Assembly: GCF_019884725.1 (NCBI RefSeq)
Contig: NZ_CP082322.1
Span: 1,116,001 to 1,180,000 of the forward strand
Reading direction: 5' to 3'
Length of the DNA: 64,000 bases
Origin: Leucobacter tenebrionis
Lineage (GTDB): Bacteria > Actinomycetota > Actinomycetes > Actinomycetales > Microbacteriaceae
Position numbers and translations under genes: made by a program. Under the pieces are notes generated by a model that did not search any database, had not been told where the DNA came from, and was given only the letters and a program-made list of their open reading frames with translations. Of this stretch, positions 1 through 17,852 are shown piece by piece (the stretch's first letter is position 1; the number at the start of each line of letters is the position of its first letter).

Positions 1-2
1 GC

Positions 3-179
3 ACGGCGAAGCGGTCGAAAGGCATGAGTCCGAGCCAAGTCGACATGGCCGCACGCCTCTATGAGTCTGGCCTCTCGCTCGCGAGTGTCGGCGCGCAGCT
101 CAATTTCGACGCAACAACGATCCGCACGATGCTTATACGAAGCGGCATAGCAATGCGTGACTCACATGGACGGTACTGA
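3..179 (+). CDS. C-terminal fragment of recombinase-like helix-turn-helix protein
   Basis: This is the 3' end of a plus-strand gene entering from the left edge; 58 codons are visible before TGA. The tail reads as an HTH of the kind found at the C-terminus of actinobacterial resolvase/recombinase proteins: a short Ser-Pro linker, then AARLYESGLSLASVGAQL as first helices, then DATTIRTMLIRSGIAMR. This domain normally lets the recombinase bind its site. The catalytic part is outside the window, so it could also be a small stand-alone HTH protein. It converges on the trlF-like gene with about 12 bases between stops. Confidence 0.5.
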   Translation, partial: TAKRSKGMSPSQVDMAARLYESGLSLASVGAQLNFDATTIRTMLIRSGIAMRDSHGRY

Positions 180-191
180 CCGGACTTCACG

Positions 192-2816
192 CTAGAACCC
201 GTAAAGATGCTGTCGAGCGTTGAAAGCTGCTGGCCCGCCCTCGAGCACGTTCTCAACGTGGGAACGAATGGTCACATCGTCCAGGGAACCGATGCCGTCC
301 GCTGCAGCTCGACCATTCTGACCATCCCCTTCGAGAGCCACGATCAACTCAGCATCGCCAAGCACTGGAACGTTCGCATTGTGAGTGCTCGCGATGATCT
401 GACGCTTACCCTTCAGAGTCCGAAGGTTGGTGACGATGCCGTCATAGACGAATCGGTTGTCCAGATCGTCCTCGGGCTGATCGATCACGAGCGGAGCGTT
501 CGATGCGCCGAGCAGGAGAAGGAGCAGGGCGGTCGCGCGCTGCCCCTTCGACAGATCGTCCATCTTCTTGAACTCGCGCGTGCCCGTTCCTGCCTGAACG
601 TCGAGTTGAACCTCCACCGCTTGCCCCACTGATTGCTCCTCGAGCTGTCGGAAAAGAGGCTCTCCGGCCTCAAGCAGAGACCGCGCCTGTGCACCGCTGA
701 TCGAGAACTGTGCGCTCAGTTCCGACTCTCCGGCTCGCGCCGCCTCTACGAAGGCTCGCGTTGAGAAGTTGTCCTGGTCGATAGCCGCCATGATGCGATT
801 GCGCTGACCGGAGATGGACTGCTCGATCAACGACTTGATGTGCTTCCGATCCGACGCGGGGACGGGCTTTACGATCACGACGCCGCCAGTCGCGGCGTTC
901 GCGGCACGGATCGCTTCGGTCAGTTCTCGTGCCCGATCGTTCTCGTGGCCTGCGAGCGCCTGCAGCAGGATGTCCCGCTCGGTTTGCAGGCCCCGAAGGC
1001 TCGTTGCAATACCGGCGCGTCGAGACTCCTTGGCCTTCAACGTCTCCAGTGCCCTGGTCGTGTCGAGGTACTTGTTGGGCTCCAGCCCCTCCTCCACGAG
1101 CTTGCGAAGCACCTCATCGTGCTCGTCGCGCTGCTCGCGAACTGCGTCTGACCATTCGGTCTTCGCTGTCTCGATCTCCAAAGATGCCGCGTCGAGCGCT
1201 GTGCGGGCCTCAGCCGCAAGGGCCGTCAGCTTGGCGGCAAGTGCCGTCGACGCAGCCTGAGCGCGCTTGAGATAGTCAGATCTGGGTGAGTCGTCAATGT
1301 TCTCGAACGCGGCCTCAAGCTTCGTGATCAGCTGCGGGTCGGTGAGCGCTGTTAGCGATTCCTGAGCTGTGGCCACGCGCGCCGTTGCTTCAGTGAATAC
1401 CGCTTCGTCCTGGGTGAGTCGCGTGACTTCCTTGAGGCGAGTCGGCACATCCGTGTCGGTGTAGTGCCGCACCTGCTCCTCGAGCCGAGGGACGTCCGCA
1501 AGCTCATCCTCGAGCTGGGTTCGCCCCTCCTCTGCACGAGTCAATTTCTCTCGGTTCAGCTTGAGCTTGGCCAAAGTCTCGATGTGCTCGGCCGTCAGTT
1601 CGCCACTCCCTTGGAACCGCTGCAGCATGCTCGCGACCTTCGAGCTGTCGTTCGTCAGTTCGGCAAGCTCGTGTTGCCCGAAGATCTCCACGTTTGCGAT
1701 GACGTCGACTGGCCGCAGGTTGGTGGCAGTACCGCTCTCGTCTTTCACTACCGGAAGGTTGTTGACAGAGCGCTCGATGGTGAACGTACGCACCGACGGC
1801 GAGGTGGTCTCGACGAGCAGCTTCACCACGGTGCCCGACTTGAGCACACCGCTCACGATGCCGTCATGGTCTCGCTTCGCCTCCGCACCGATCGGGGTGA
1901 GCCCCAGCACAAATCGGAGGCTCTCGATGGCCGTCGATTTCCCAGTGCCTCGTCCGCCAATGAGTGTCGTGAGATCGGTCGAAAGCGGAATCGTCACGCC
2001 ATCCAGAAAGCCGCCGACCCACGAGATTTCTTTCAGGGTGGGGCGCGGTTCGATTGCGGGATCCTCCAGCGAGACTCGAGTCTCAGGCGTTCGGACAGCG
2101 AGCTTGAGGCTGTCCACGGAGAGGCGACTGACCTTGAACCAGCAGCTCGCCCCCTCGCTCTGGAGGGCGCACGGCTTCGTCACATCGTCGGCATGGATCG
2201 CGGCAAGCGGGTGAGCCCTGTCATAGGGCTTGGTGCCGTTGAGGATCGCCGCCTGGTCTGTGCCATCGGGTTGGCTCGGTGTGATGCCGAGTGCATGAAG
2301 GTCCGGGTGCTTGATCTTGGTGACGAGTGGCTGTCCAGCGCGGCCAGTCAGGAGGCCGCTGTTCGGAACGTTGACGTGGGCAGGAATCACGAGGGCGCCC
2401 TGCGCGGTCATCTTCTCGAGGATGTCGGTAAACGGCTCGCCGGTTGTCCCGTTGGCGCAGCCAGGTGATACCCCGCACATCCCGATCGCGGCGTTGATCG
2501 TCGCTGCGCTGGTGCCCGCTTCGAAGATCACAAGGATGTGGATGCCCTCGTCGGAGTTCGCCTCGAAGCCGGGAAGGGCAACGATGCCCCGATCGGCTGC
2601 GTCGCGGATGAGCTGAAGTGCGGAGTCGACCTTCCAGTGATCCGTGATGGCGAACAGCTCGATACCCTGCGCTTCGCATTCGTCGAGCAGGGCCTTGTTG
2701 TAGTCCGCCTCCGTGTTGTACGTCGCCGACGGCGCGTTCTTCCCTTGGTATTCGTAGGGGTTCACCTGGAGTGCGGCTCGCACCCATCGTGCCCCGGGGC
2801 CAGTCTTATCGTTCAT
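192..2816 (-). CDS. TrlF-like PHP-domain/SMC-like ATPase
   Basis: 874-aa protein with an N-terminal PHP-like domain (about 1-250; FAITDH at 55-60, PGFEANSDEGIH near 85, PAHVN near 145) and an SMC/ABC-type ATPase. Walker A GGRGTGKS is near 290, a coiled-coil-like Glu/Arg/Leu-rich stretch spans about 390-640, the signature LSKGQ is near 757, Walker B LVIDQPEDD near 778 and the H-loop STHN near 810. This order fits the TrlF family of AAA-like ATPases often found in defence islands. The usual HxH of PHP motif I is not visible; the equivalent stretch is ALQVNPYEYQG. ATG 2816 is chosen because a GGGGGATGAG-type ribosome site precedes it; TTG 2828 is possible. It is the last gene of the defence operon, 128 bases after the ApeA-like gene. 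Its enzymatic substrate is unknown. Confidence 0.8.
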   Translation of the reverse strand: MNDKTGPGARWVRAALQVNPYEYQGKNAPSATYNTEADYNKALLDECEAQGIELFAITDHWKVDSALQLIRDAADRGIVALPGFEANSDEGIHILVIFEAGTSAATINAAIGMCGVSPGCANGTTGEPFTDILEKMTAQGALVIPAHVNVPNSGLLTGRAGQPLVTKIKHPDLHALGITPSQPDGTDQAAILNGTKPYDRAHPLAAIHADDVTKPCALQSEGASCWFKVSRLSVDSLKLAVRTPETRVSLEDPAIEPRPTLKEISWVGGFLDGVTIPLSTDLTTLIGGRGTGKSTAIESLRFVLGLTPIGAEAKRDHDGIVSGVLKSGTVVKLLVETTSPSVRTFTIERSVNNLPVVKDESGTATNLRPVDVIANVEIFGQHELAELTNDSSKVASMLQRFQGSGELTAEHIETLAKLKLNREKLTRAEEGRTQLEDELADVPRLEEQVRHYTDTDVPTRLKEVTRLTQDEAVFTEATARVATAQESLTALTDPQLITKLEAAFENIDDSPRSDYLKRAQAASTALAAKLTALAAEARTALDAASLEIETAKTEWSDAVREQRDEHDEVLRKLVEEGLEPNKYLDTTRALETLKAKESRRAGIATSLRGLQTERDILLQALAGHENDRARELTEAIRAANAATGGVVIVKPVPASDRKHIKSLIEQSISGQRNRIMAAIDQDNFSTRAFVEAARAGESELSAQFSISGAQARSLLEAGEPLFRQLEEQSVGQAVEVQLDVQAGTGTREFKKMDDLSKGQRATALLLLLLGASNAPLVIDQPEDDLDNRFVYDGIVTNLRTLKGKRQIIASTHNANVPVLGDAELIVALEGDGQNGRAAADGIGSLDDVTIRSHVENVLEGGPAAFNARQHLYGF

Positions 2817-2944
2817 CTCATCCCCCAAGCTTTCTCCGAGCTGACGGGCATCGTTGCCCGCGCTCGCGTTACCTGTCTAATCTGGCGGCAGACACCAGCC
2901 GATCGGTCGGCGGAATCCTGCAGTGTGAAGCCGCCACCATTCCC

Positions 2945-4402
2945 TCAGCGCTCCCCGTTCCTGGCTGCACGCTCCTGCGCGCCGAGCGGAGCACCAAGCA
3001 ATCGGATGGCCTCAGAACGCACCGCCCGTTCGAGGATGTCAGCCACGATCGCCAAGTGCTGGGGTTCGAATGAGCCTGAGCCGTGCGACAGTGTGTTTCG
3101 GGCTCTTGTGAGAGCAGTCTGGAGCGGGAGCGTTCCTTTACCGGTGTCTTCCTTGCGAACGGCCTTGATCAGTTCGGTCTTCGTGAGTTCCTCCGAGACT
3201 TCGTCCGGTAGTCGCTTCAGTAGATCTGAGAGCGCCGAGTCGAGGCCCTGCTGAGCCTCCCGACGGAGGTTCTTGTTGATGAATGTGAAGTCGGCCTTCT
3301 CGAGAAGTTGCTGGGCACGCGCAAGTATGCTCTCCCGCTTGAGGCCGTACTTCTCTTTGTTCGCCTCATGCTTGGCGCGGTTCTCGAAGCCGTATGATCC
3401 CTCCAGCGCTTGGAGCAGAAGTAGGAACCTCGAGCGGGGATGTTGGTCAGTAGCCGTTGCCATCGCACCGTAGGTCTCAAAGAGAGGGTGCCTAGCCGTG
3501 ATCTGTCGCTGCCAGGCATGTAGTAGGTCGAGCAGGCTCAGGTCGTCGTTCGCAAGGTTGACCGCCGAACGAATCTCCTCGACGGCAGCGCGGGTTGAGT
3601 TGACGGGCAGGTGGGTGATGTCCCAGCCGAACACTTGGTCGCGGTGCGAGCGCGGGGCGGCCTCATCGACCAGCGTGAGAAGGTACCGAAGCTCACGGGG
3701 AGCACCCGTCAGGAGTGAGATGAGCTGGCGGAGAGGGCGCACCCACTCAAGCCACCAATCGACAACCGTCAGTGGCTCGTCTGAGTTGAGGCGCAGGACA
3801 GGGCCGAAGGCCATCCTGAATTCGTAGCCGTCGAGCGCCCGCACGCTGTAGTCGTAGCTGAAAATCATCGACTGGCCGCCGACGCTCCAGGTGAACTTGG
3901 CGTCCTTGTCGACGGTGGCTTCCCAGACTGGCTCGTCGCCAGCCTTCATCGGCATTTTGACGCGAGAGATTGGGGCGACCCCCGCGACCGATTCCAGCCC
4001 CTCGATCTGGAGCTCGATGGAGGCGTACTTCCGGTGTTCCGCCGTGTCGAATGCGTCAAGTGACAGTGCTGCGAAGGCTCCCACGGCTCGGCCGCTTCCT
4101 GGGAAGCTGTAGCTGAGTTCGCCGTTCATCAGGGCCACGTAGGCCCCGCTTGAGAGTCGGCCTGTGAGGACGTCGAAGGCGTGGCGCTGTGGGAACGAGG
4201 CGACTCCCGTGGCTCCTTCGGACACCCACTCGATCGGCAGATCGCCGTACAGGATCCCGGTTGGGTACTTCCCCTGCTCAACGGTCAGAAGTCCCGGAAT
4301 CGCCAGATGGCCACCCCTACGGTCGGGCACCTGCCAGGTGATGAGGTACTCGCCGGTCTCAAACGGCAGCTTGACTGCTGAGGTCTCCTTGGCTGGTTTC
4401 AT
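2945..4402 (-). CDS. ApeA-like HEPN-domain defence protein
   Basis: 485-aa protein. The first ~270 residues form a beta-rich domain resembling the N-terminal domain of ApeA family proteins. The C-terminal ~180 residues are helical and contain ARNTLSHGSG near 437, which matches the RNxxxH motif (R-x4-H) of HEPN ribonucleases. ApeA proteins are anti-phage HEPN proteins thought to cleave RNA on infection and stop growth. The start overlaps the qatD stop by four bases (ATGA), so it is translationally coupled to the Qat genes. Family assignment rests on architecture and the HEPN motif; the exact RNA target cannot be read from sequence. Confidence 0.7.
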   Translation of the reverse strand: MKPAKETSAVKLPFETGEYLITWQVPDRRGGHLAIPGLLTVEQGKYPTGILYGDLPIEWVSEGATGVASFPQRHAFDVLTGRLSSGAYVALMNGELSYSFPGSGRAVGAFAALSLDAFDTAEHRKYASIELQIEGLESVAGVAPISRVKMPMKAGDEPVWEATVDKDAKFTWSVGGQSMIFSYDYSVRALDGYEFRMAFGPVLRLNSDEPLTVVDWWLEWVRPLRQLISLLTGAPRELRYLLTLVDEAAPRSHRDQVFGWDITHLPVNSTRAAVEEIRSAVNLANDDLSLLDLLHAWQRQITARHPLFETYGAMATATDQHPRSRFLLLLQALEGSYGFENRAKHEANKEKYGLKRESILARAQQLLEKADFTFINKNLRREAQQGLDSALSDLLKRLPDEVSEELTKTELIKAVRKEDTGKGTLPLQTALTRARNTLSHGSGSFEPQHLAIVADILERAVRSEAIRLLGAPLGAQERAARNGER

Positions 4403-5187
4403 CGCGGCGCTCCGTTCGCACGCGCGAAGGCGATCATCCGCCGAACAGCGGCAGGGAGAAGGCCGTCAACGTTCGTCTCACCCACAAGGCGGACCAGGTT
4501 CGCCCAGACCTGCCTGCGGACAGCTTGGACATCGAGACTGTAAATCCTCGCCAGCGCCTGTTCGACGTCGTCGACGGAACCCGGCTGTCGCGGCAAAGTG
4601 GATGTGCGATCACCGGACGGATGGTCGGTCTCGGTAAGAATCCGCTCGAGCGGGATCAGCGAGACGTCAGCCGGGTACTTCATCCCTGCGGCGTTGATCG
4701 AGAACCAGCAGTCGAGTTCGATCGCCCGCAACGTCTCGGCCTCGTTGCCGCGCCACCAGTGGAGCACAGCACCCTTGATCGGCGTTCGCTCCAGCGCGCC
4801 CAGAACGCGGCCCGACGCACCTGAACTGTGGATAGAGGCGACGCGGGGGGTCCTCTGAAGCGCGCTAAGCACCGAGGCGAACACCTGCTCCTGATCCGCA
4901 ATGGGCACCTTTGAGCGCCCGTCCAACCCGATCTCACTCACGAAGGCGGTCGACGCGAGCAATGAGCTAAACCTCGTTGCGTCGAAGTCCTGCTGCGCCT
5001 GCGCGACGCCTGGATGACAGCCGACGCCCCAGATCGTGACCTGATCGCGACGAGCTCTGACGGACTCGTACTCGTCCAACGATCGAGTCGCCGCGAACAC
5101 GACTGCGCCGAGCCGCTCGAGGTCGGCGGAGCGAGTCTTCGGGTTGATATGCGCATGCAGGTCGAGCGGGGGAAGCTGGGGTGCCAT
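4399..5187 (-). CDS. qatD: QatD: TatD-like metal-dependent DNase
   Basis: 262-aa TatD-family hydrolase of the TIM-barrel amidohydrolase fold. Metal-binding elements are visible in order: LHAH (His11/His13), GCHPG near 55, the SEIGLDG glutamate near 84, SIHSSGASG near 118, and TETDHPSGDR near 190. TatD enzymes are Mg-dependent 3'-5' exonucleases; in the Qat defence system the homologue is QatD. The gene overlaps qatC by one base and the ApeA-like gene by four, in the order qatA-B-C-D seen in described Qat systems. Identification as QatD comes from family plus context. Confidence 0.88.
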   Translation of the reverse strand: MAPQLPPLDLHAHINPKTRSADLERLGAVVFAATRSLDEYESVRARRDQVTIWGVGCHPGVAQAQQDFDATRFSSLLASTAFVSEIGLDGRSKVPIADQEQVFASVLSALQRTPRVASIHSSGASGRVLGALERTPIKGAVLHWWRGNEAETLRAIELDCWFSINAAGMKYPADVSLIPLERILTETDHPSGDRTSTLPRQPGSVDDVEQALARIYSLDVQAVRRQVWANLVRLVGETNVDGLLPAAVRRMIAFARANGAPR

Positions 5188-6485
5188 CAGAAGAGCCCCC
5201 GCAGTTCCTCAACTCCACGCCGGGACAGCGCGAGCGCGTCCTGCGCGGTGTATCCCTCCGGCAGTGACATCGCCATCACGTCGCGTGGCCGGATGCCTCG
5301 GTCGACGAAGTCGCGGAGCGGCTCAACGATCGACTTCTGCCGGACGAACGTGCCGTACCTGCCACTCGCATCTTCGGAGAGATAGGTCGTGGCGTCTGGA
5401 ATGCCGGCGGCGGTGAAAGCTGCTCGGCGGACGAGGCAGCCGAAGCAGACACCGCAGGAGGAACCAGCTGGCGCTCCGCTGTAGCGCCCATCGGTGTGCG
5501 AACAGGAGTTTGTGCTGCTGAGGTAGGCCGAGGCGGCGTCGATGCCAACGGCATCTGCCACACGGCGGAACATCTCGCCCTTCGTGAGCGTCTCGAAGGG
5601 GTTCTCGATAAGGCCATGACCGCCCACGCTGTGCATCAGCGCAGACAGTTCCCGTAGGAAGCGCGGATGGGTGGTGTGCGTCGACAGGCTGCCACGGCGA
5701 TCGGGGCCGAGCGGCGGGTTGAGCGAGGCAAAGCCGTTCTCGGCAATCCAGAGCGTCGAGCCAGCGCGCTCAGCGACGGCAAGCCCGAGCGCAAGGAAGA
5801 GCAGTGAGCGCGAGCGCGTCGACGTCTCGCTGCGGAACGATGAGCCGTCAAGGCGCCTCGATCCACGATGGAGGTGGAACTGATGATGCACCTGCCGGAT
5901 ACCGGGTATCAGCTCGTTAATCGCGCTGACGATGCCCTGTTGCACCGGGGAGATCGCGGTCGAGCTGTACTGAGACACCAGCGACTGGGAATGGTTCCCG
6001 CCCAGCTCGACTGCGGACAACAGTGCGCCAGCGGCCGAGTCAGCGCCCCCGCTCAGAAGCACCGTCCGGTCGTGGTGCTGCTCCTCGATCGGCAGTCCGG
6101 TCGCCTCAGCCAAAGGAGCCTGAGTGAAGGCGAATGCCCAGCTGTCACCCGAGAGGAACCCGACCGTGCGGGATAGCTGCTCGGCAAGCGGCGCCCAGAT
6201 TTCAGGATCGGTCACCTCAACGGTGAGGTCAAAGTCCCGTGCGTTCCAGCTCGAGCCTCCGGCCTCACGGTGCACTGATCGATCAGCGGCAAGAACACCG
6301 AGCGCAATCCGGACAAGGTCGACGTTGCGTGGGTTCACCACGCCAAGGCCGGCCAGGTGGGGATCGACACCGCCAGTGAAGGTGGTGCGGCCGTTGCGCG
6401 TCCAGAGGAAGACCTCGTCGAAGCCGCCTTCCTCAAGGCCGGCATCAGCAGCTGCCTCGGAGAGTGTGAGCAGCAGCCGGGTCAT
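5187..6485 (-). CDS. qatC: QatC: QueC-like 7-cyano-7-deazaguanine synthase-type protein
   Basis: 432-aa protein with a PP-loop ATP pyrophosphatase core: LLSGGADSAAG near 147 is the SGGxDS motif. The C-terminal half has a cysteine cluster (CSHTDGRY, then SSCGVCFGCLVRRAAF near 345) like the zinc site of QueC. QueC makes the deazaguanine precursor preQ0; QatC keeps the fold but its substrate in defence is not established. It is longer than QueC (about 220-230 aa) owing to an extra N-terminal region. It overlaps qatB by four bases (ATGA) and qatD by one. Confidence 0.9.
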   Translation of the reverse strand: MTRLLLTLSEAAADAGLEEGGFDEVFLWTRNGRTTFTGGVDPHLAGLGVVNPRNVDLVRIALGVLAADRSVHREAGGSSWNARDFDLTVEVTDPEIWAPLAEQLSRTVGFLSGDSWAFAFTQAPLAEATGLPIEEQHHDRTVLLSGGADSAAGALLSAVELGGNHSQSLVSQYSSTAISPVQQGIVSAINELIPGIRQVHHQFHLHRGSRRLDGSSFRSETSTRSRSLLFLALGLAVAERAGSTLWIAENGFASLNPPLGPDRRGSLSTHTTHPRFLRELSALMHSVGGHGLIENPFETLTKGEMFRRVADAVGIDAASAYLSSTNSCSHTDGRYSGAPAGSSCGVCFGCLVRRAAFTAAGIPDATTYLSEDASGRYGTFVRQKSIVEPLRDFVDRGIRPRDVMAMSLPEGYTAQDALALSRRGVEELRGLF

Positions 6486-7324
6486 GACGTGACTCCGAAG
6501 ATCTGCCCGATATCGCGGATGCCGTTCTCGATGGCCTGCGCCATCTGCTGCTCGGTCGCGCCTGCCGGGTTCAGGGTTGCCTGCGCCGCATACTCCGCTG
6601 CCACATCACGGATCTGGCGCTCCAAGCTACGGCGCTTCTCGAAGCTGGCGTCCTTGGCGTAGATCGTCGCTGACACCTCGGTCAACGCGGTCTCCGCGAT
6701 CGTTGTCTCGATCGACTTCCTGACGACATCCTCCGGCGTCGGCGGATGATCCGCAGGCTGCTCCAAGATCCACTCGACAACGGTCGCGACGATGTCGCGT
6801 TCCTCAGCATCCGCAACTGTGCTGTCGGCCTGGGACTCAAAGGTCGCCTCGATGATCTTGAGCCCGATAGCGACAGGGTCACCGAGCGACTGCAGCTCGT
6901 CGTAGTTGAGACCAGCCTCACGCAGGGCCTCCCGGTTGCCAGACGAGTAGGCAAGCGCAAGCCGCCCAGCTCGCCCAGCTGCCCGAGATACCCGACCGAC
7001 AGAGCGGGTGGCACCACCCGATGAACGGCCACCCCCTCCGCCTCGGGCACCGCCCCCGCCGCCACCACCCGGGCCGTCGCTGCGCCCACCGCGTCCGCGC
7101 GAGTTGAGCAGGACGCGAAGCGCCGGCCCGAGGTCTACACGCGGTTGCGCCGGAGTTCCGGGACGCGGCGGATCAGAAACGTGGTCGGCTCCGTCCGCGC
7201 CGCTCGTGTCAGCACCATCGGCGGCGCCTGGCCCACCTGCGGCATCAAGCCACGCCGCAATGTTGTCGCGCAGGTCGCCTGCGTCCTTGCCACCGCTGCC
7301 GCCGAATGAGCCGCTAGTTCCCAT
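6482..7324 (-). CDS. qatB: QatB: Qat anti-phage system component
   Basis: 280-aa protein. The N-terminal ~110 residues are Gly/Asp/Ala-rich with a run of glycines (about 85-105), suggesting a flexible segment. The rest is predicted helical (AGRAGRLALAY, then EQPADHPPTPEDVV and GIRDIGQIFG at the end). No catalytic motif is seen. It is called QatB from its place between a KAP ATPase (QatA) and a QueC-like protein (QatC); the helical domain with a Gly-rich N-terminus fits that family. ATG 7324 lies inside the end of qatA (11-base overlap). The open frame extends upstream, but that part is antisense-like and Arg/Ser-rich. Confidence 0.75.
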   Translation of the reverse strand: MGTSGSFGGSGGKDAGDLRDNIAAWLDAAGGPGAADGADTSGADGADHVSDPPRPGTPAQPRVDLGPALRVLLNSRGRGGRSDGPGGGGGGGARGGGGGRSSGGATRSVGRVSRAAGRAGRLALAYSSGNREALREAGLNYDELQSLGDPVAIGLKIIEATFESQADSTVADAEERDIVATVVEWILEQPADHPPTPEDVVRKSIETTIAETALTEVSATIYAKDASFEKRRSLERQIRDVAAEYAAQATLNPAGATEQQMAQAIENGIRDIGQIFGVTS

Positions 7325-9197
7325 TGCCGCTCCACGCCGTCTCGACGATGCCCACAGACTGCTGGAGTTGCTGGTCGTCTGACCCGTCCCGCCAGGCCTC
7401 AAGCACCGGCCGATAGACCGCCTGATCCAGCGGTCGAAGCTTGATGATCGTCGCCGGTTCGACGTGGGCGGCGGGAAGACTCTTCAGCGCCGCCACAACA
7501 CTCGGCTGGGTACTGGGCTGCTGCGCCGCGAGGCGAAGCAGGCTCTCGACGGTGAACTTCTGCAGAGCGGGCTGATCGCGAGTTCGGCGTCCGAGATGGC
7601 CGACCAAGATCTGGGCGTCGCCCTCTGGAAGCAGCTTCAAGGTTTCGTCGGTGACGCCTGCACGGTCGAGCTTGAGGCTCGAGGCCAGGGCAACCGCGAG
7701 GTCGCGGAGACGCTCGGGTAGCCCGGTGTCGATGACCTCGATCTTGGCGAATGAGGCAGCAAGGTAGAGGTACCCGGAGATGGCGGATGCATCAAGTACG
7801 GGCGGGAGTTTCGCCCAGCGGCGGAGAGTGTCGCTGAAGTCGTCATCACGAGCGGGCTCTGGCTCCGGCTCGGTAACGGCAGGCTTCTTTCTGGCGCCGC
7901 GCTCCTTCGGCGTCTCTTCCTCGGAAGTTTCAGACGCAGGTTCCTCAATCGTCTCTACGCGACCGTTCGCAGCAACGTCGAGCGCGTCAAGCTTGTCGCG
8001 CAGCTGGTTCGACGCGAGCCAGCCGAGCACGGTCTCAAAGTCATCGGTGAGGATGCGCTCCAGCACCATGAGCTTGGCAACCTCATCCGGCTCCAGCTCG
8101 AATCCACGACGCCGGGCAACGGCCTGGCGTACATTCAGGTCGTTGAGGAACCGCTTAATGCGGCGCGGATTGCCGTGGAACTTCTCATAGAGGATTGGCG
8201 TCAGGCGTGTGGCCGTGACAAGGTGCTCCGCCAGCACACTGCCATCCTCGACCTCCAGGTCGTCGAGGCTGCCGCCACCTATGCGCAGCTCGTCGCACTT
8301 CGTGACGAAGGACGCATATGCCGCCTCGTCTTCGCTCAGCTCGGACTTCGCGAGAAGGAGGAAAAGATACGCCTCGGTGTCGAATCGGCTCAGCGCGGGA
8401 AGAGGGATGGTCGTCTGGACGATCTTGTGCAGGTAGAGCTTGGCCGGATCCTCATCCTCGTTTTTCGGAGCCGCAGTCTTGAGCTTCTGCTGGATCGCCT
8501 CGGCGACGCGATCCTCATCGGCCGCGATGACGAAGGACATGCGCTTGGCCGAAAGGAACAGCCTGATCGCTTCAAGGGTCTCGACCACAGTGTCCGGCAG
8601 GCAGCGGTCGAGATCGTCGACGAGCACCACCACACGCGACAGGTGGGCCAGCGCGGGATCAGCCAACAACGTCTCGAACTCTTCGCGGAAGGCGGTCATG
8701 CCTTTCTCGCTGTCGAGGCTGTCAGGCTCGTCGCTCACCAGCCCGAAGACGTCATCGATGTTTGGCAGCTGCATGGTGATGGCGGTCTTCGCGGCCATCT
8801 TGACCGCCTTCGACCAGTTCACCTTGCGAACGAGCTTCTTAAAGGCTTCGAGGCCAGCCTTGCCAACCGGGTCTGACTCTTTGAACTCCTTGCTGAGTGC
8901 GCCGAGCACCTCAGCAAGGAGGCTCTCCTTCGGGCCGACTGCCGGGTCGTAAAGCCACGGCTGCGTCGAGATGACGAGCACCTTGCGATCGCTATCTTTG
9001 GAGCGCTCCGTGATCTCGGACTTGATCAACTCCAGCACACTGGTCTTGCCGCTGCCCCAAGCACCAGACAGACCGATTGCCACCGGGTCGAGTCCATCGT
9101 CGAAGATGGCGTCCGCGGCCGTCTCCGCCACGGCACGAAAGGCCAGCAGATCCTGGGTGGCGGGCTCATCCGACCAGAGCGGGTATGAGGAGGTCAT
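7314..9197 (-). CDS. qatA: QatA: KAP-family P-loop NTPase
   Basis: 627-aa KAP NTPase. Walker A GAWGSGKT lies at 45-52 and Walker B VVVLVDDLDRC near 190, the DDLDR form typical of KAP proteins. After about 440 there is a charged Glu/Thr/Lys-rich linker and a helical C-terminal domain. No clear transmembrane insert is visible, unlike many KAP proteins. QatA is the ATPase of the four-gene Qat anti-phage system. ATG 9197 overlaps the res stop (9194-9197, ATGA), so it is coupled to the restriction gene; its own end overlaps qatB. Confidence 0.88.
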   Translation of the reverse strand: MTSSYPLWSDEPATQDLLAFRAVAETAADAIFDDGLDPVAIGLSGAWGSGKTSVLELIKSEITERSKDSDRKVLVISTQPWLYDPAVGPKESLLAEVLGALSKEFKESDPVGKAGLEAFKKLVRKVNWSKAVKMAAKTAITMQLPNIDDVFGLVSDEPDSLDSEKGMTAFREEFETLLADPALAHLSRVVVLVDDLDRCLPDTVVETLEAIRLFLSAKRMSFVIAADEDRVAEAIQQKLKTAAPKNEDEDPAKLYLHKIVQTTIPLPALSRFDTEAYLFLLLAKSELSEDEAAYASFVTKCDELRIGGGSLDDLEVEDGSVLAEHLVTATRLTPILYEKFHGNPRRIKRFLNDLNVRQAVARRRGFELEPDEVAKLMVLERILTDDFETVLGWLASNQLRDKLDALDVAANGRVETIEEPASETSEEETPKERGARKKPAVTEPEPEPARDDDFSDTLRRWAKLPPVLDASAISGYLYLAASFAKIEVIDTGLPERLRDLAVALASSLKLDRAGVTDETLKLLPEGDAQILVGHLGRRTRDQPALQKFTVESLLRLAAQQPSTQPSVVAALKSLPAAHVEPATIIKLRPLDQAVYRPVLEAWRDGSDDQQLQQSVGIVETAWSGNGN

Positions 9198-12118
9198 AGC
9201 AGCCGCTCCTGGCGTGCCGTGGTGGTGCGACGAAGTCGCGCGTATTCGAGAAGATCGGTCACCGTGGCGTTCTTCTCGTGCCACTCGTTGACGATGGTCT
9301 CGCCCAGTAGCACGTATGCCCAATCCCTGCCGTCGCGCTCTTCCTCGGGTAGCTCATTGATCTGCTCGCACCATGCCAACGCCGCTTTCTGCTTGCGCTG
9401 CACATTCTCGTCGCTGAGCGCAGACTGCGCCTTCGTCTCGACAACGTAGATGGTGAACGGCGTGCGGATGAGGAAGTCTGGCGAGTACTGCGCGGGCATG
9501 CCATCGGCTTTCAGGTACGGCCGACGAAGGAAATCGTGCCGGTACTCGTGCACCTTGGCCAGGGCCTCGATGCCAGAGTCTTTGTCAGCCCAGCGGATGA
9601 AGCGTCGCTCAAGCCCGCCGCCTTGGGATGGGACTGGCAGTTTCGGGTAGATGCACTTGTTGACTTCTTCGGCGGTGCTACCGCGAACGGGGATCGTGGC
9701 GACTTCGGACAGTGAACGGTGCTGTACTTCGGCTGAGGCCACCAACTGGCTGTCCTGGAGCTCGACAAGCCTGGTGGCGAACGTTCCGGCGATACTGTGC
9801 GCGACGTCGTCAAGCAGCAGCACGCGCCAGTTCTCTTCGGCCAGCGGGTCAAACTCCTGACCAAATAGGCGGTGACGGATGTAGCTGTCGAGCCAACCGG
9901 TGAGCAGCGGACGGTACGCCTGGAGAATCGGGAACTTCGCGTTCTCGTTATACTTGCTCTGACTTTTCGTCATCGTCCGGCCAAGCGCCTCGGTGATGCG
10001 CGTCGTCATGCGGGAGAGGTAGTCGTTGTAGCCAGTGGCAGTCAGCACTCCGCCATCGACGCGGTAGTCACCGTACTGTGTACCAGTCTCGGCGTCGTGC
10101 GAAACGAACCGGTCACCCTTGCCGACGGTCTTGATGATCAGGTCAAGTGGGTACGGCGACGCCGCAAGCTCGAGCGGATTGATGCTCGGCTGACGTAGTT
10201 CCTCGTCGGCATCGCGCAAGATGACAGGAATCTCGAAGTCGTACGCTTGGTAGCCAGGTCTGAGATCAACGTGCTCCAGGTCGCCGGTTGCACCAGTACC
10301 GTCCGCGTCGTCGCCGGTTTCGACCATGAGTCCACCGCTGAGCAGTTCATCGTAGAAGTCGCTGAACGCTGGGTGTTCGACGATGAACAGCACGTCAAAG
10401 TAGTTGGTCGGCTCGAGCCCCTTACTGATTCGCTCCCGGGTCTCGGCCTTAAGCTCGTCGATCGAGGGGTCGCCGCGCCACATCAGGCGCAGACCGCGCC
10501 CGATCGTCTGCTCCAGCAGGATGGACGCCTTTGACGAGCGCAGCGGCACGATGACTGCGATATTGCTGACGTCGAATCCTTCACGGAGCATGAGCACCGA
10601 GACGATGACCTTGGGCTGCTTGTGCCGGTCGACGTCGAACAGCTTCTCTCGGATGGGCTCCCAGTCCTTCGGGCCAAGCTCGGCCTTGCGGCCGGAGTCG
10701 ACACGCAGGATGTCGTCCTCAGAAAGCCCAGTGCTCTGCAGGTACTCGACGACGTGCGGTGTGACGTTGGTGTCTTCGCAGACCACCAGCAGTTTCGGGT
10801 GTTTGTCGGGATCGGCGTCGGCGAACTGTTCTTCGAGGATCTGGAGCTTCTTCAGACCAGCCTGGAGCATGACGCGCTGACCGTTCGACAGGCCGGTGAC
10901 GCGCTTCTGCTCGTCGCGCTCCGCTTTGAAGTCCAGTGGTAGCGCCGCGATCTCCTTGCGCTTATCAAGCGCAAGCGACTTAACGAGTCCGGCACGCATG
11001 GCGGACTTGAGGTCGAAATCGACGACGATGTGAGGGAAGTAGGCCTTGCCCTTCGAGCGCCCCGATCCGACCTCGTTGTATGGGGTCGCGGAAAAGTCGA
11101 CCTGGGTGAAACGGCGTCCCTTTGTCGAGGCGATCTCACTCAGGCTCTTCTGCCACTCGACGTCGGTGACCTCATCGGACTTGCGCACCTCGTGGATGTG
11201 ATGTGCCTCGTCGTTGAACACGACGAGATCGGGCAGGTCTTTCAGCGCTTGGAGTGGGCCGCCCCGCAGGAACCGTCGGTCCAGCACATCGAGCGCGTTC
11301 CCAGCGCTCGTGCCAGGAGTGAGCGGGAAGAAACTCTCGACTGCGGCCTTCGGGTCGATCTCGGCGCCAGGCGCTTCGACCTCGTCATCGTCGAGAAAGT
11401 CGGGGTCTTCCTTGCCTGCGAGTAGATGCCAGTTTGTGATCGCGATCAGGCCCGATCCGGTGACCTTGCGACCGATCTCGGTCTTGGTGACGACGGAGGA
11501 CTGAAGGAACGTGAAGACCTGCGTGCGGTAGGTGTCCGGTATGAACAGATCCTGCTGACGGTAGATGTCGCTCGTGGAGAAGTCTCGCTCGCCATTCTGC
11601 TCCTTACCCTGGAACGAGTCGAGGAGCCGGTCGTACACGATGAGACCCGGTGCGACGAGCAGGAAGTTGCTGGAGAAGCGCGGATCCTGCGGGTTCGCGA
11701 GCTTGTTCAGGTACTGCCAGACCAGCAGCGCGTTCAGCACCCACGTTTTACCAGTGCCCGTGGCCATCTTCGCCGCGTACTTCGGGTGGTCGTGGCGGTC
11801 GCGCGTCACCTCGCCAAGTACGCCGCCCTCAAGCATCGCTTCCGGAGCGACTGCCTCGTAGAGATCACGGAGACGGGCCGTGCCGAGGACTTCGTGCGCG
11901 TAGATGATGTGGAGAATCGCGGCGCGCTGTCCGGCGTGGAAATTCAGCTCGCGGAGTTCGCAGTAGTCCTGCTGAAACCAGAAACGCAGTAGCTCGGCCG
12001 TCACCGGAGTGACCTGGTCGAGCAGCTTCGAACCGGTGCCATCGACGATCCCGGGGATCAGCGGGTCAACGACCGCAGAAAGCCCCTTGGCAAGCGGGAA
12101 GTCAGCAAAGCCGCTCAT
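9194..12118 (-). CDS. Type III-like restriction subunit Res (SF2 helicase-nuclease)
   Basis: 974-aa SF2 translocase. Walker A MATGTGKTWV is near 122 and the DEAH-type box FNDEAHHIHE near 302. Helicase domain 2 includes VSVLMLREGFDVSN and QTIGRGLRLMWRG (motif VI arginines, near 540). At the C-terminus YSPDFLIRTPFTIYVVETKA (about 876-895) gives the PD...ExK of a restriction nuclease. Such Res subunits work with a Mod subunit to find unmethylated sites and cleave after ATP-driven movement. It overlaps mod (12115-12118) and qatA (9194-9197) by four bases each. The pairing with Mod and the nuclease motif support a complete type III enzyme; recognition sequence unknown. Confidence 0.87.
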   Translation of the reverse strand: MSGFADFPLAKGLSAVVDPLIPGIVDGTGSKLLDQVTPVTAELLRFWFQQDYCELRELNFHAGQRAAILHIIYAHEVLGTARLRDLYEAVAPEAMLEGGVLGEVTRDRHDHPKYAAKMATGTGKTWVLNALLVWQYLNKLANPQDPRFSSNFLLVAPGLIVYDRLLDSFQGKEQNGERDFSTSDIYRQQDLFIPDTYRTQVFTFLQSSVVTKTEIGRKVTGSGLIAITNWHLLAGKEDPDFLDDDEVEAPGAEIDPKAAVESFFPLTPGTSAGNALDVLDRRFLRGGPLQALKDLPDLVVFNDEAHHIHEVRKSDEVTDVEWQKSLSEIASTKGRRFTQVDFSATPYNEVGSGRSKGKAYFPHIVVDFDLKSAMRAGLVKSLALDKRKEIAALPLDFKAERDEQKRVTGLSNGQRVMLQAGLKKLQILEEQFADADPDKHPKLLVVCEDTNVTPHVVEYLQSTGLSEDDILRVDSGRKAELGPKDWEPIREKLFDVDRHKQPKVIVSVLMLREGFDVSNIAVIVPLRSSKASILLEQTIGRGLRLMWRGDPSIDELKAETRERISKGLEPTNYFDVLFIVEHPAFSDFYDELLSGGLMVETGDDADGTGATGDLEHVDLRPGYQAYDFEIPVILRDADEELRQPSINPLELAASPYPLDLIIKTVGKGDRFVSHDAETGTQYGDYRVDGGVLTATGYNDYLSRMTTRITEALGRTMTKSQSKYNENAKFPILQAYRPLLTGWLDSYIRHRLFGQEFDPLAEENWRVLLLDDVAHSIAGTFATRLVELQDSQLVASAEVQHRSLSEVATIPVRGSTAEEVNKCIYPKLPVPSQGGGLERRFIRWADKDSGIEALAKVHEYRHDFLRRPYLKADGMPAQYSPDFLIRTPFTIYVVETKAQSALSDENVQRKQKAALAWCEQINELPEEERDGRDWAYVLLGETIVNEWHEKNATVTDLLEYARLRRTTTARQERLL

Positions 12119-13986
12119 GGCTGCACCTCCACACCTGAGATAACGACCTCAGACTCGAAACCGAACACGTCAACCGCACGAACACAGACTGTGCGCGGAT
12201 CATCCGCACGAGGCAGGTCGAGTACTGCGGTCGTGACGACCCGCAGCTCATCACCGTCGTTCTCGGTGTTGCCCCGGTAGTCCTGCCAGACCGAGCGGAA
12301 CACCTCGCCGTCGTAGTCGGGATCGACCGCCCAGTACTCAATGAGCGCTAGTGGCTCGGTGTTCATCACGTCCTGGAGCTTTGCTCGGTTTGCCTGATCG
12401 AGGTTGATCGCATCCGGTGACAGCAGCACGTAGTTCTGCAGGTTCACTGCCAAAGACTCACGTTCTCCGTCCGTGGTGCGCGCGGCAACCTCGGCCTGGA
12501 GGTACTGCAAGCTGGAGAAACGTACATCGGTAGCGAGCTTGTCCGCTCCCTTTTTCTTCAGACGATCAAGCAGATCCGGTGGGATCACCAGTACCTCGAG
12601 GTTCGGATCGTTGAGGTCAGTGATGTCTTGTCCGATACCGGCCGAGAAGTTCCAGCCGAGCACCACAACCTTGTCGAAGCCACCCATCTTGACCTCGCGA
12701 TAGCCCTGTGCACGCTTCAACGTCGAGATCGTGGTCAGGCGCGATGGGCTGTCCGCATAGACAAGCGTGCGCGTGCCGGGCAACCGGCCAAGGCTGCCGT
12801 TCACGTTCTCTTCGGGCGGCAGGGGAAGCGCACCGAAGAGGTCGAGCACCACCTTCGCAAGATCGCCGACACGGAACGAGCGCCCAAGCGTCGAACGTGC
12901 TTGCTCCACCTGGTAGTCGCCGATGGCCTGGTAGAGGAAGGGCTTAGCATCTTGGTCGATGAGGCGCTTGCGGGTGATCATGGCGGCGGGCTTTCCAAGG
13001 TCGCTGACTACCCAGCGGCGGCCAAGCTTTTCAGCGGCTGCAGCCGTCGTACCGGATCCAACAAAGAAGTCAGCGACAAGACCACCTTCAGGGCAGGAAG
13101 CCGTGATGATGCGTTCCAGGAGCGACTCATTCTTCTGGGTTGCGTACCCCACCTTTTCTTTTGAGAAGCTCATGATCTGGATGGAGTCGAGACGGTCCAT
13201 CTCTGACGAGTTCCACGTATCCTCGATCGGGTATCCCTGACCCGTTGGACGGTTCCCATCTCGCCGTACGTAGTCGTCGGGGTAAGGTATGTACTGCTTG
13301 TTGAAGTGGAAGCGATCACGATCCTTGACGTAAAAGTAGATGTCGTCGTGATTGCGGATCCAGTTTTTCGCCGCTGACTTATACCCCGATATCCAACCGA
13401 TCCGCCAAATGATCTCGCGTTGAAAGTTGCGCTTTCCGAATATCTCGTCGAGCACGATCTTGACGTAGTGGCCAACATTTGAGTCAAGGTGGACATAGAT
13501 CGACCCACGCTCCGACAGCAATTCCCGCATGAGAACCAGCCTCGGGGCAATCATCGCGAGATACGACGCCGTCCCGTCCGACCATGTGTCCGAGTAGGCG
13601 AACTGTTCCAGTACCGTCGGCTTCTGGTCGATCGTCGCGCCCGGCAGGGTGATCTTCGTCCGGTAGTCGGCCTTGGAGTCGAAGGGCGGGTCGATGTAGA
13701 TCAGATCGATCTTTCCGCGCAAACTCGGCGTGTCCTCATCGCCCGCGAGGAGTGCGGCCATCGCGAGGAGGTTGTCGCCGTAGATCAGACGGTTGGGTGT
13801 CTCGGTCGGGTCGGCACCGTCGTTACCCCAGAAGTTGAAGCCACCGCGATCCTTCGAAGGGATCACGAGCTCACGTGTCTGCAGACTGACGCGGTTCCGC
13901 CCCTCCAGTTGCTCCAGGATCTGTGCCGCTTGCCGCTTACCTGCGGCGACGATGCCGGGTAGCTGCTCCAGTAGGGACTTGCTCAT
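12115..13986 (-). CDS. Type III-like DNA methyltransferase Mod (beta class)
   Basis: 623-aa DNA amino-methyltransferase. Motif IV IDPPFDSK is near 98 and the SAM-binding FVGSGTT near 308, so the order (catalytic first) is that of beta-class N6-adenine/N4-cytosine enzymes such as type III Mod. The region between, and the C-terminal ~250 residues, probably hold target recognition and Res contacts. ATG 13986 is preceded by GGAGGAG about a dozen bases upstream. It is the first gene of the eight-gene defence operon, so the operon promoter should lie in 13987-14361. A lone protective methylase is unlikely because res follows directly. Confidence 0.87.
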   Translation of the reverse strand: MSKSLLEQLPGIVAAGKRQAAQILEQLEGRNRVSLQTRELVIPSKDRGGFNFWGNDGADPTETPNRLIYGDNLLAMAALLAGDEDTPSLRGKIDLIYIDPPFDSKADYRTKITLPGATIDQKPTVLEQFAYSDTWSDGTASYLAMIAPRLVLMRELLSERGSIYVHLDSNVGHYVKIVLDEIFGKRNFQREIIWRIGWISGYKSAAKNWIRNHDDIYFYVKDRDRFHFNKQYIPYPDDYVRRDGNRPTGQGYPIEDTWNSSEMDRLDSIQIMSFSKEKVGYATQKNESLLERIITASCPEGGLVADFFVGSGTTAAAAEKLGRRWVVSDLGKPAAMITRKRLIDQDAKPFLYQAIGDYQVEQARSTLGRSFRVGDLAKVVLDLFGALPLPPEENVNGSLGRLPGTRTLVYADSPSRLTTISTLKRAQGYREVKMGGFDKVVVLGWNFSAGIGQDITDLNDPNLEVLVIPPDLLDRLKKKGADKLATDVRFSSLQYLQAEVAARTTDGERESLAVNLQNYVLLSPDAINLDQANRAKLQDVMNTEPLALIEYWAVDPDYDGEVFRSVWQDYRGNTENDGDELRVVTTAVLDLPRADDPRTVCVRAVDVFGFESEVVISGVEVQP

Positions 13987-14361
13987 GCTGTGTGTGATCT
14001 CCTCCGCGCCGAGGGCGCGTCTTAAGTTGTGCTCATAGTGCCGTGTCCCACGGTACCGGCGGCCACCGACACTGCTAAGGTGCCGCGCCGCTCGGGCGGG
14101 TCATGCTGTCGCAGGCGGGAGCCGGACGGCTCGACCGGGACGCTGCGATCTACCTTCTATTCTCTCATAATCCTCAATTTGCCGGAATAGGAATATCGCA
14201 AAGCGAGAGATAAATGCTGACGAGAGGCGCTTTCAGTATTGTCTCAGCAAGTAATTCATGATATATTCCGAAGCAGTAATGCATCTGGCTTTCCACCACA
14301 CCATCTTCAAGTCTTTTTGCACCCTCGCTGTTCGAGGGGGTGATTTCGGAGCCGTCGCGTA
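13987..14361. other. Divergent intergenic region upstream of defence operon and glycosyltransferase
   Basis: 375 bases between mod (leftward) and the glycosyltransferase (rightward). The part near 14150-14300 is clearly AT-richer than its surroundings, as expected of promoter or recently acquired DNA. No perfect -35/-10 pair stood out for either side. A minus-strand frame at 14174-14386 is open for 70 codons but has no family signature. Confidence 0.35.
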
Positions 14362-15834
14362 GTGCGTCTGGTTCCGGATCTCTCACCAGTCGGCTGGTTC
14401 CTGCTCGGAGCGATGGTGCTCCTGATCTTCACCTATCTCTATTTCTGGTGGATGGTGATCAAAGCCAGCGTTCACAAGCATGTCTCACGTGAGAAGGTCA
14501 CCAACCGGAAGCTCACCGCATCCCTCGCTTATGCGAAGCGCAAAGGGAACACGCATCGCTTCCTGATCCAGATCACCACCAAGGGCGGTGCGCTCTCCGT
14601 CGTCCAACGCGGTATCGACAACGTCCTCGCGGGCGTCGCCCGCTATCCAGTGCTGCAGAAGGTCGTCTGGGTGGAGATCATCACCGAGGATGCCGACGAG
14701 GTCGCCGCACTCCAGACCCGCTATCGCAACGCCGTCATCCCGGTGACGCCGTACCTGCTGCCGACGGACTACCGCACACCGAAGGACACCCGTCTCAAGG
14801 CCCGCGCGTTGGAGTACATGGTCGAGCAGCACCGCGCCACCCCGACCGATTCCTACGTCGTGCACTACGACGAGGAATCCGTCTTTACCCCCGACAACCT
14901 CGCTCGCCTGGTGCATCGGCTGAGTCGTCATCCGGTCGGGATCTCGGAAGGCATGATCTCCTATGGTCTGGACTGGAACGAGACGACGCTGCTGAACAAG
15001 GCGATGGAATCGAACCGTCCCTTCGGCTGCCACGAGTGCTACTCCGTGATGACCAGCCCGCCGCCGATGCACCTGCACGGCTCGAACCTCGTCGTCCGTC
15101 AGGATCTGGAGAACCAGATCGGCTGGGACATCGGCAACCTCGATGGTTCCGCCCTCATCGCGGAAGACCTCGTCTTCGGGCTCGCCGCCTATCTCAAGTT
15201 CGGGAAGAACGTCTTCGGGTGGCATCACACCGAGATGATCGAGCAGCCGCCATTCACGTTGAAGGCCGCCTACAAGCAGCGTGAACGCTGGGTGTTCGGT
15301 GCGATGCAGGCCCTCGCGCACATTCGCCAGCAGCCCGACTGGATGCGTCTGTCGCGGAAGGATCGCTGGCACATCAACGTCGTCATCCGCCTGCGCGTGC
15401 TGACCTACGCCCTCGGCTTCCCCGTCTCGCTTCTCGCGCTCGGCTCCAACGTCGTTATCCTGCTCATCCTCGCTGCTGAGGCTGTCAGGGAGGGCACCAT
15501 CACGGTCGTCGCGCCCGAGCTGACCGTCTACGGCATCATCACCTCGATCGGGCTCGTCCTCTGGATGGCAGGTACACAGCTCGGCCTGTTCTACAACCTC
15601 CGCTACACCGGCATGAACCGTCTGCAGAAGCTCCGCGACCACGTCCTCGTACTCGTCGTCACGCCGTTCGCCGGTGTCATCGACACCGCCGGCCCACTCG
15701 TGGCCGTCCTGAAATGGCTCGCGGGCATCCGTGAGGTGGCGTGGAAGCCGACCCCGAAACTCGCCGCGGAGTCGAAACAGCAACCTAAGCGCGTCGCTGC
15801 CGCCGAAGTAGCAGCAGGAGAAAAAGCAGCATGA
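14362..15834 (+). CDS. Membrane glycosyltransferase family 2, egghead-like
   Basis: 490-aa membrane GT2 enzyme. An N-terminal hydrophobic helix (about 9-33) precedes the catalytic domain; EDLVFG near 268 gives the acidic catalytic element and QRERW near 305 the QxxRW motif of processive GT2 enzymes. Three or four membrane helices follow (about 345-370, 385-410, 425-450). The best resemblance is to egh-type beta-1,4-mannosyltransferases that transfer sugar from a nucleotide donor to lipid or polysaccharide. GTG 14362 is chosen because GGAG precedes it at 14348-14351 and a stop in frame lies at 14341. The stop overlaps the next start (ATGA). As ICE cargo it may alter the cell surface. Confidence 0.75.
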   Translation: MRLVPDLSPVGWFLLGAMVLLIFTYLYFWWMVIKASVHKHVSREKVTNRKLTASLAYAKRKGNTHRFLIQITTKGGALSVVQRGIDNVLAGVARYPVLQKVVWVEIITEDADEVAALQTRYRNAVIPVTPYLLPTDYRTPKDTRLKARALEYMVEQHRATPTDSYVVHYDEESVFTPDNLARLVHRLSRHPVGISEGMISYGLDWNETTLLNKAMESNRPFGCHECYSVMTSPPPMHLHGSNLVVRQDLENQIGWDIGNLDGSALIAEDLVFGLAAYLKFGKNVFGWHHTEMIEQPPFTLKAAYKQRERWVFGAMQALAHIRQQPDWMRLSRKDRWHINVVIRLRVLTYALGFPVSLLALGSNVVILLILAAEAVREGTITVVAPELTVYGIITSIGLVLWMAGTQLGLFYNLRYTGMNRLQKLRDHVLVLVVTPFAGVIDTAGPLVAVLKWLAGIREVAWKPTPKLAAESKQQPKRVAAAEVAAGEKAA

Positions 15835-16669: not shown

Positions 16670-17266
16670 TCAGTCCACCGGGGGCAGCGCGTCCATGAGG
16701 ATCTGCATGCGACGAGGGAGTTCCACGGCGGATACGACCCTCACGTTGACCGCATCAGTCCACCGCTCGCGGAAGACCACGGCCCATGCTGCGGCCGAGA
16801 AGTAGTCCTCATGCCGCGTCACGCTGAGGCACCAGCTCGGGTCGCCGTGAGTGAGTGGCAGCAGGATGCTGGACAGCTTGCCGTTCGATCCGCTGGACTC
16901 CGAGGCGCCGCCGATCTGTATGGCGACGGCGTACTCGCGAGCGACTGTCAGCAGATCGACGACTTCCCGTGGCATGTCGGTGCTGTCACCGTTCTCGTCG
17001 GGTAGTCCCACGATCACGGCGTTGCCGACGAGCATCGCCTGGTGCGCACCGGGGACGTGGAACCACCACAGGAACGAGGCCCTGGGGTTGAACGGCAGGT
17101 GCCGCAGCAACCCCTCCTCGTTGACGTAGATGGTGATGCCGAGGCTGGGCACATCGACCGCCTCGATCCAACCGTCCACAGCCGCCTGGTAGTCGTCGAG
17201 CGTCGCGAATTCGCGTTGTTCGAGCGGCTCACTCTCATCGACCGGGACATAGATTCCCTTGACCAT
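16670..17266 (-). CDS. DUF3846 domain-containing protein
   Basis: 198-aa protein whose N-terminal ~90 residues match the DUF3846 pattern found in actinobacterial mobile elements: MVKGIYVPVDE, then a DDYQAAVDGWIEAVDVP helix, then ITIYVNEEG and LPFNPRAS. The second half has no recognised domain. ATG 17266 is preceded by a very good ribosome site (GAAGGAGG). DUF3846 proteins sit among accessory genes of plasmids and ICEs, with no proven function. Confidence 0.75.
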   Translation of the reverse strand: MVKGIYVPVDESEPLEQREFATLDDYQAAVDGWIEAVDVPSLGITIYVNEEGLLRHLPFNPRASFLWWFHVPGAHQAMLVGNAVIVGLPDENGDSTDMPREVVDLLTVAREYAVAIQIGGASESSGSNGKLSSILLPLTHGDPSWCLSVTRHEDYFSAAAWAVVFRERWTDAVNVRVVSAVELPRRMQILMDALPPVD

Positions 17267-17770: not shown

Positions 17771-17852
17771 GGCGAGACCTCCTTCATGCGTGCGGCCCGC
17801 GATCCTGGATGGATCACGTTCAAGCCGCATGGCAGGAACGAGGTGATCGCTG

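Follow-up and report, generated by a model that had tools for sequence, protein, structure and literature searches.

The layering of restriction-modification (R-M) with HEPN proteins is known, and the ApeA and AbiJ families are listed in R-M operons in the accessible part of PMC3710099. The PrrI-PrrC-type operons treated there combine an R-M first line with a HEPN RNase second line in one operon, and the locus described here, if it is one operon, would resemble them in this. A second relative is the RptR-controlled RRDM island, with DarTG2 within a type I R-M operon, where the accessible text of PMC12255303 describes one regulated promoter for R-M and toxin-type defence. The third is qatABCD, which, in the available portion of PMC13279940, shares with our locus the A-B-C-D gene order, the QatB MGTS terminus and the QueC-like motifs of QatC; the MGTS N-terminus is described there as a QatB motif, and QatB MGTS together with the QatC SGGxDS and Cys-cluster motifs in the accessible text of that paper and of PMC13329287. 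Among the matches listed, no description was found in the open literature of an R-M-Qat-ApeA-TrlF operon, nor of a shared leader RNA with exchangeable modules behind R-M.

The window analysed here is a 64,000-nucleotide stretch of Leucobacter tenebrionis DNA (contig NZ_CP082322.1). Its positions 192-13986 hold eight genes, each with a frame open from ATG to stop, and on recheck the frames and coordinates of these genes and of all seven junctions agreed with those first described in a sequence-only reading. The row and its surroundings, in the direction of the operon, are as follows.

14362..15834, plus strand: divergent glycosyltransferase-like gene (Pfam Glyco_trans_2_3); this left flank is conserved in several relatives
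14159..14167, minus strand: extended -10 promoter-like element TGAGAGAAT, pattern TGN(1-2)GANAAT
13999..14151, minus strand: conserved structured leader of approximately 153 nt, ending with Shine-Dalgarno GGAGGAG; putative 5' UTR, its start predicted
12115..13986, minus strand: mod, type III-like DNA methyltransferase, 623 aa (PADLOC MTase_III, 239 bits)
13125..13423, minus strand: region of mod exchanged in L015 (no DNA match to it), probable target recognition domain
9194..12118, minus strand: res, BPTD_3080-like helicase-nuclease, 974 aa (ResIII; PADLOC REase_III, 79 bits)
7314..9197, minus strand: qatA, KAP-type ATPase, 627 aa (PADLOC and NCBIfam Qat models; Walker A)
6482..7324, minus strand: qatB, 280 aa, N-terminus MGTS (named by position, tblastn with relatives and the MGTS start)
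5187..6485, minus strand: qatC, QueC-like, 432 aa (PADLOC and NCBIfam Qat models; SGGADS and Cys cluster)
4399..5187, minus strand: qatD, TatD-like nuclease, 262 aa (PADLOC and NCBIfam Qat models)
2945..4402, minus strand: apeA-like HEPN gene, 485 aa (Pfam ApeA_NTD1, PF18862, 41.6 bits, cut-off 25.5)
2817..2944: apeA-trlF spacer, 128 bases
192..2816, minus strand: trlF, PHP/SMC-like ATPase, 874 aa (NF045780 TrlF_fam_ATP, 468 bits, cut-off 350; Walker A)
1..179, plus strand: C-terminal part of a convergent double helix-turn-helix gene, the rest of which lies beyond the left edge of the window

Neighbouring genes overlap by 4 bases at mod/res, res/qatA, qatB/qatC and qatD/apeA, by 11 at qatA/qatB and by a single base at qatC/qatD; the R-M and apeA genes lie on the same strand within this one overlapping row, and the spacer before trlF is conserved in two relatives (84% in L013, 79% over three quarters of it in L020; L numbers denote the loci compared). 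This layout suggests that all eight genes would be transcribed as one unit. A sigma-70 consensus scan of positions 1-15000 found nothing promoter-like on the strand of the operon; as the same scan missed the extended -10 element that precedes the leader, it decides little.

Active-site motifs are present in those window proteins that were checked. At the head of the row, Mod (DPPF and FxGxG, with a variable central domain) adjoins Res, whose helicase motifs (Walker A, DEAH) are accompanied by a TnsA-like nuclease match just below threshold (26.2 bits against a Pfam cut-off of 26.5), and on this combination the pair is classed as type III R-M; Res scores 204 bits with the curated BPTD_3080-family model, short of its cut-off of 800. 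The Mod of L015 is nearly identical to that of the window except over approximately residues 176-309, where protein identity falls to 24-56%. Exchange of the central region of a Mod protein is the usual sign of an altered recognition sequence.

The four Qat genes are adjacent and in order, with the MGTS start in QatB and SGGxDS plus the Cys cluster in QatC, but the system is filed as Qat-like and divergent because its proteins score below the NCBIfam equivalog cut-offs (QatA 316 against 600, QatC 248 against 280 and QatD 134 against 230 bits). QatB had no meaningful family match in three profile libraries; an xGTS start is found in 15 of the 16 relatives examined. An R-M or Hma gene lies directly upstream on the same strand in 10 of 21 non-redundant Actinomycete Qat loci (QatC approximately 45% identical or more), a count that takes three Rhodococcus plasmids as one, leaves out L019 (upstream cut) and includes L013, with only a Res remnant, and L014, with an apparently frameshifted Res. 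Only 1 of 11 more distant Qat loci has such a gene (type IV-like, 395 bases off), L050 and L051 being left out as no qatA was found in them. A special tie of Qat to R-M was not adopted on these figures, which are suggestive only because the upstream genes of the distant loci are incompletely annotated. Three large proteins upstream of Qat (L016:3-2216, L021:4768-7119 and L023:1495-4068) are without PADLOC match, that of L016 also without a Pfam match, and are possible new defence heads. In L017 (2-7252), the stretch directly upstream of Qat includes another ApeA-type gene, matched by Pfam HEPN_Apea and flanked by an HmaB methylase gene and a DUF499/Swt1-HEPN gene.

Window ApeA is assigned on its N-terminal domain and a HEPN R-x4-H motif, R435-x4-H440, whose R435 and H440 are invariant in all seven aligned proteins; the Pfam HEPN_Apea domain gave no match in it. 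An intact TrlF, 96% identical as protein, is placed behind a different operon in L097. Elsewhere trlF is decaying at the row end, broken in L020 (13640-16270) and internally deleted in L013 (12084-14026), where apeA is frameshifted too; the Qat genes there are still open.

The region before mod was first spotted as approximately 97 bases alike in L012 despite a different mod and res, and alignment revealed a conserved leader common to the window, L015, L038 and L012. A 19-base motif from it, with one mismatch allowed, occurs in 5 of 297 genomes, the window's own included (the reversed control gave none among the matches listed), and all four new places head R-M operons; a viral match, L064, was set aside as chance, there being no other leader sequence around it. 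A covariance model of the leader's 3' 90 nt (R1, built from eight loci and covering 13990-14079) was applied to three families, represented by 249, 139 and 121 genomes, and matched 5, 5 and 3 of these (E 0.001, 1e-6 and 1e-6), giving seven further loci at no less than 55 bits, from which G1394, the L012 record, is excluded. All seven head a defence operon, six of them an R-M operon. The leader loci now number sixteen, with R1 scores of 31-110 bits: the window, L012 (= L090), L015, L038, L065, L066, L067, L068, L077, L078, L080, L091, L092, L093, L094 and L095. The one weak member, L080 at 31 bits, was retained because a type I-like operon follows, while L079 and L081 (33 and 28 bits), situated inside long reading frames, were dropped.

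Whatever gene comes next, leader homology stops at the Shine-Dalgarno or a few bases from the first start codon. Of the 14 leaders tested, all but L093 and L080 have the pattern TGN(1-2)GANAAT at a constant position, making 12, against a background of 0.52 per 10 kb of fetched loci; the leaders of L067 and L068 are partial, comprising only the last 73-84 bases without the 5' half and promoter. An identity with a known RNA was discarded, Rfam 15 having no match at the leader. No leader was found in a search of plasmids, and a second leader pattern had no matches on plasmids and viral contigs. Eight Qat genomes tested held no clear leader (best 19.6 bits, E 0.096), and L014, likewise without a clear one, still has SNF2-Mod-Res-Qat-ApeA, so that leader and Qat are separable. 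A conserved mini-ORF within the leader (ATG AGC ACA ACT TAA) was considered and rejected, its start or stop being lost in several loci. The first reading frame after the leader is a peptide of approximately 20-35 codons in L012, L038, L065, L067, L078, L091, L093 and L094 and the R-M gene itself in the other eight loci. Three of these peptides are related and 28 residues long (MTxFSTRWSHGP... in L038 and L078, a diverged form in L012); the defence genes that come next are unrelated, being Mod in L038 and L012 and HamA in L078. Another short peptide family (MKRR... or MRRS...) precedes SNF2 in L067, L091, L093 and L094.

The leader structure, assessed on 14 sequences, comprises four helices and 19 pairs. 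Related sequences can beat shuffles without structure, and the structure was derived from the same alignment; read in that light, 93.6% of cells are paired against 89.8 +/- 0.6 in shuffled alignments (none of 500 as high), the covariation score is 0.237 against 0.173 +/- 0.013 (again none of 500, and also above six slid controls), and six pairs are changed on both sides, a number that 4 of 500 shuffles reached. Further pair types did not exceed shuffles (201 of 500 as high), and the leader sequence by itself folded no better than its shuffled versions (z -0.49). A single clade of three loci accounts for the two clearest double changes; helix 1 passes from A-U/G-C to G-C/A-U jointly in L077, L092 and L095, probably as one event, and alignment A5 misplaces part of the 5' stem in these three. 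The helix immediately before the Shine-Dalgarno shows 100% pairing, is kept in 14 of 14 and is mostly invariant.

Behind the leader, type I or type III-like R-M comes first in 15 of 16 loci and Hachiman in one, HsdM/S/R and SNF2-Mod-Res being named by similarity to scanned genes of L018 and L014. The gene orders are:

Window: Mod-Res, Qat, ApeA, TrlF
L015: Mod-Res, Qat, Abi_C
L038: Mod-Res of another kind, Qat (QatC only 48% alike), Abi_C
L012: Mod-Res (a different type III pair), Qat
L093: SNF2-Mod-Res, Qat, ApeA
L067 (scanned) and L094 (by DNA identity): SNF2-Mod-Res, OLD-like
L091: SNF2-Mod-Res
L065: HsdM-S-x-R-YgjP, HamAB
L066: HsdM-S-R, Tmn-like, TrlF
L077 and L092: HsdM-S-x-R, Tmn-like, Abi_C, AbiH (Tmn and AbiH scanned in L092; L077 is 94% identical DNA there)
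L095: HsdM-S-x-R, 118-base gap, IetA-like, DUF6414
L068: HsdM-S-Ymh-R, Schlafen AlbA_2, PDC-S53
L080: HsdM-S-x-R, 315 aa, PDC-S53
L078: Hachiman HamAB, without R-M

The exchangeable modules after R-M are of Qat, Tmn, OLD, Hachiman, PDC-S53 or IetA types, followed by ApeA, Abi_C, AbiH or TrlF; the AbiH frame of L077 itself had no PADLOC match. In L068 (6811-7551) a Hypoth_Ymh protein of approximately 245 residues lies between HsdS and HsdR and overlaps both, with a weak PADLOC similarity to PD-Lambda-3/HEPN (scored in L068 only); genes of like size and place occur in L065, L077, L092 and L095.

A homologue of the convergent helix-turn-helix gene lies downstream in 12 of the 16 leader loci; the gene also occurs in some leaderless loci. 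It is 31% identical and approximately 2 kb off in L068/L099, has a stop within the aligned range in L093, and was not found in L067/L098, L078, L080/L101 and L091. Pfam scans of three copies returned helix-turn-helix or similar DNA-binding models and, among the matches listed, no catalytic recombinase model. On the other flank, the glycosyltransferase-like protein is 93-98% identical over the matched parts in L015, L038, L066 (in pieces) and L094. Leftward of the window, L056 (18512-19615) has, shortly past the helix-turn-helix gene, a frame that by eye is IS transposase-like.

Relatives of the row were collected by a contig scan with QatC, which yielded 14 loci, and from overlapping sets of 149, 396, 396 and 245 genomes, of which 6, 8, 6 and 2 matched at the thresholds applied. 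A tblastn search of their loci with all eight window proteins found partial copies only: mod-res-qatABCD in L015, qatABCD-apeA in L014, the same with a broken trlF in L020, and qatABCD with damaged apeA and trlF in L013. The qatABCD-apeA block is present in five loci (window, L014, L020, L093 and, with its frameshifted apeA, L013), and other heads before Qat are SNF2-Mod-Res (L014, L093), type I HsdMSR with a YgjP-like gene (L018, and similarly L037) and Hma (L017). The outcome named beforehand as refuting the original proposal, modules mainly separate in relatives, was half borne out. Mod-Res occurs without Qat on plasmids L052 and L053, Qat without R-M immediately upstream on plasmids L007-L010, and L054 and L055 each carry an ApeA-like gene by itself (33% and 28% identical), but there is also the conserved frame.

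Direct comparisons demonstrate that the layers are exchanged as blocks at or near gene boundaries. Between the window and L066/L097, W 4500-6017 is common at 90% and W 17182-20267 at 92%, with no homology in the 11 kb between; the match of left flank and leader includes the first start codon, breaks off there and resumes 3 bases before the trlF start, to cover trlF and the convergent helix-turn-helix gene behind it. Eleven comparisons involve loci whose genes before Qat are different; in 9 of them (L009, L012, L013, L014, L016, L018, L020, L037 and L093) homology to the window starts at most 15 bases from the qatA start codon, the exceptions being L017 (+44) and L007, whose qatA is IS-interrupted. 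L094 has leader, SNF2, Mod and Res in common with L093, except for the central part of Mod, up to 11 bases before the L093 qatA start; it has the same SNF2-Mod-Res gene set, without the leader region, in common with L014 up to 11 bases before qatA, and carries an OLD-like gene where both have qatA. L092 and L066 are common from HsdR to Tmn until 2 bases before the L092 Tmn stop and then differ, the L066 Tmn frame stopping 26 codons earlier. The 3' edges are looser: they precede the apeA start by 138 bases in L015, by 96 in L012 and by 33 in L016. After exchange most junctions still overlap, and some have gaps of 56-128 bases.

Taken alone, the row is an unusual but understandable defence cluster; with the shared leader, the R-M-first order of 15 of 16 leader loci, and the block exchange, it offers a view onto a modular platform. 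We think it likely that it is one of a group of multi-layered anti-phage operons, each headed by R-M, with a regulatory front end in common. In our model, the promoter and structured leader RNA would govern a long mRNA; the leader would set translation of the first gene and the overlapping stop and start codons would pass this setting down the row. The R-M head would act on incoming DNA, cutting unmodified phage DNA. Qat would form the second line, with the QatB terminus modified according to the QatB-QatC model in the accessible part of PMC13279940, and in the third ApeA HEPN would cleave RNA and TrlF would act through its PHP/ATPase pair. That Qat, and then ApeA and TrlF, would deal with phages escaping R-M, possibly in synergy, is suggested by the PrrI-PrrC-type layering in the accessible part of PMC3710099. 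Whole gene blocks would be swapped, presumably by recombination, between the leader on the left and, in most members, the convergent helix-turn-helix gene on the right, most junctions staying coupled. More tentatively, and with slightly less than even confidence, we suggest an Actinomycete defence-operon platform in which a new class of structured leader RNA, with its promoter, would define a slot for exchangeable coupled blocks, and one RNA-level switch would set the whole immunity stack.

It is unlikely that the family reflects plain accretion in a defence island, with promoter and leader as part of a mobile element end, the defence genes that land behind it simply kept, and no RNA regulation or cooperation. 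Such a process would explain modules found separately, broken trlF and apeA copies, and a left flank whose DNA, glycosyltransferase gene included, is 89-94% identical among several loci, as would be the case after recent horizontal transfer; yet the leader is conserved without an adjoining glycosyltransferase match in L065, L068, L077, L092 and L095, its helices covary, R-M keeps the first place in 15 of 16, and overlaps mostly survive exchange. Accidental accretion, which the sequence-only reading had allowed for, is real, but it takes place within a frame that is conserved, and for the most part where genes meet. Palindromic operators covary too, and the frequent downstream helix-turn-helix protein, with no catalytic domain match in the three scanned copies, might bind the upstream element as a DNA operator or recombination site. 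We nonetheless consider a DNA site unlikely as well: in the more diverged L065, L077 and L091 the matched stretch opens at the -10 element or directly behind it and extends no further than the Shine-Dalgarno, a nested hairpin separates the helix arms, and the helix preceding the Shine-Dalgarno is kept in all 14 leaders. A dedicated machine of type III R-M, Qat, ApeA and TrlF that evolved as one is highly improbable and was rejected, since the genes do form one coupled row but no second copy of the full mod-res-qatABCD-apeA-trlF order was found in the genomes and contigs searched, and each module is replaced by unrelated ones in relatives.

The reading we prefer is thus of probably co-expressed layers on a platform that is modular, not of a system fixed at four modules. 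From the original proposal of one layered system, the layered arrangement has gained support, in that there is one leader, seven genes overlap, and an order with R-M first and abortive types last recurs; the fixed set of four modules has not. The same front end followed by different layers amounts to a natural experiment on whether co-located defence systems act together: the leader marks genes that may belong to one regulated stack, and layer exchange provides a test of synergy. The leader can also guide the search for new defence genes, several slot genes being without a family match, and if it senses infection or sets the balance of Mod and Res it would represent a new form of immune regulation.

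In integrons, gene blocks are exchanged behind one promoter. The window differs from these in that no integrase was seen among the genes annotated, and in that its blocks are multi-gene and mostly translationally coupled. Unlike the PrrI-PrrC type, as far as the accessible part of PMC3710099 describes it, the window adds whole systems, Qat and TrlF, in a coupled row, its modules are exchanged, and the shared leader heads different R-M types. The RRDM island, in the accessible text of PMC12255303, encodes a small repressor protein first, whereas the window leader directly precedes mod and is common to many module combinations. Finally, compared with the qatABCD of the available portion of PMC13279940, the window Qat scores below the NCBIfam equivalog cut-offs and is embedded in a longer coupled row.
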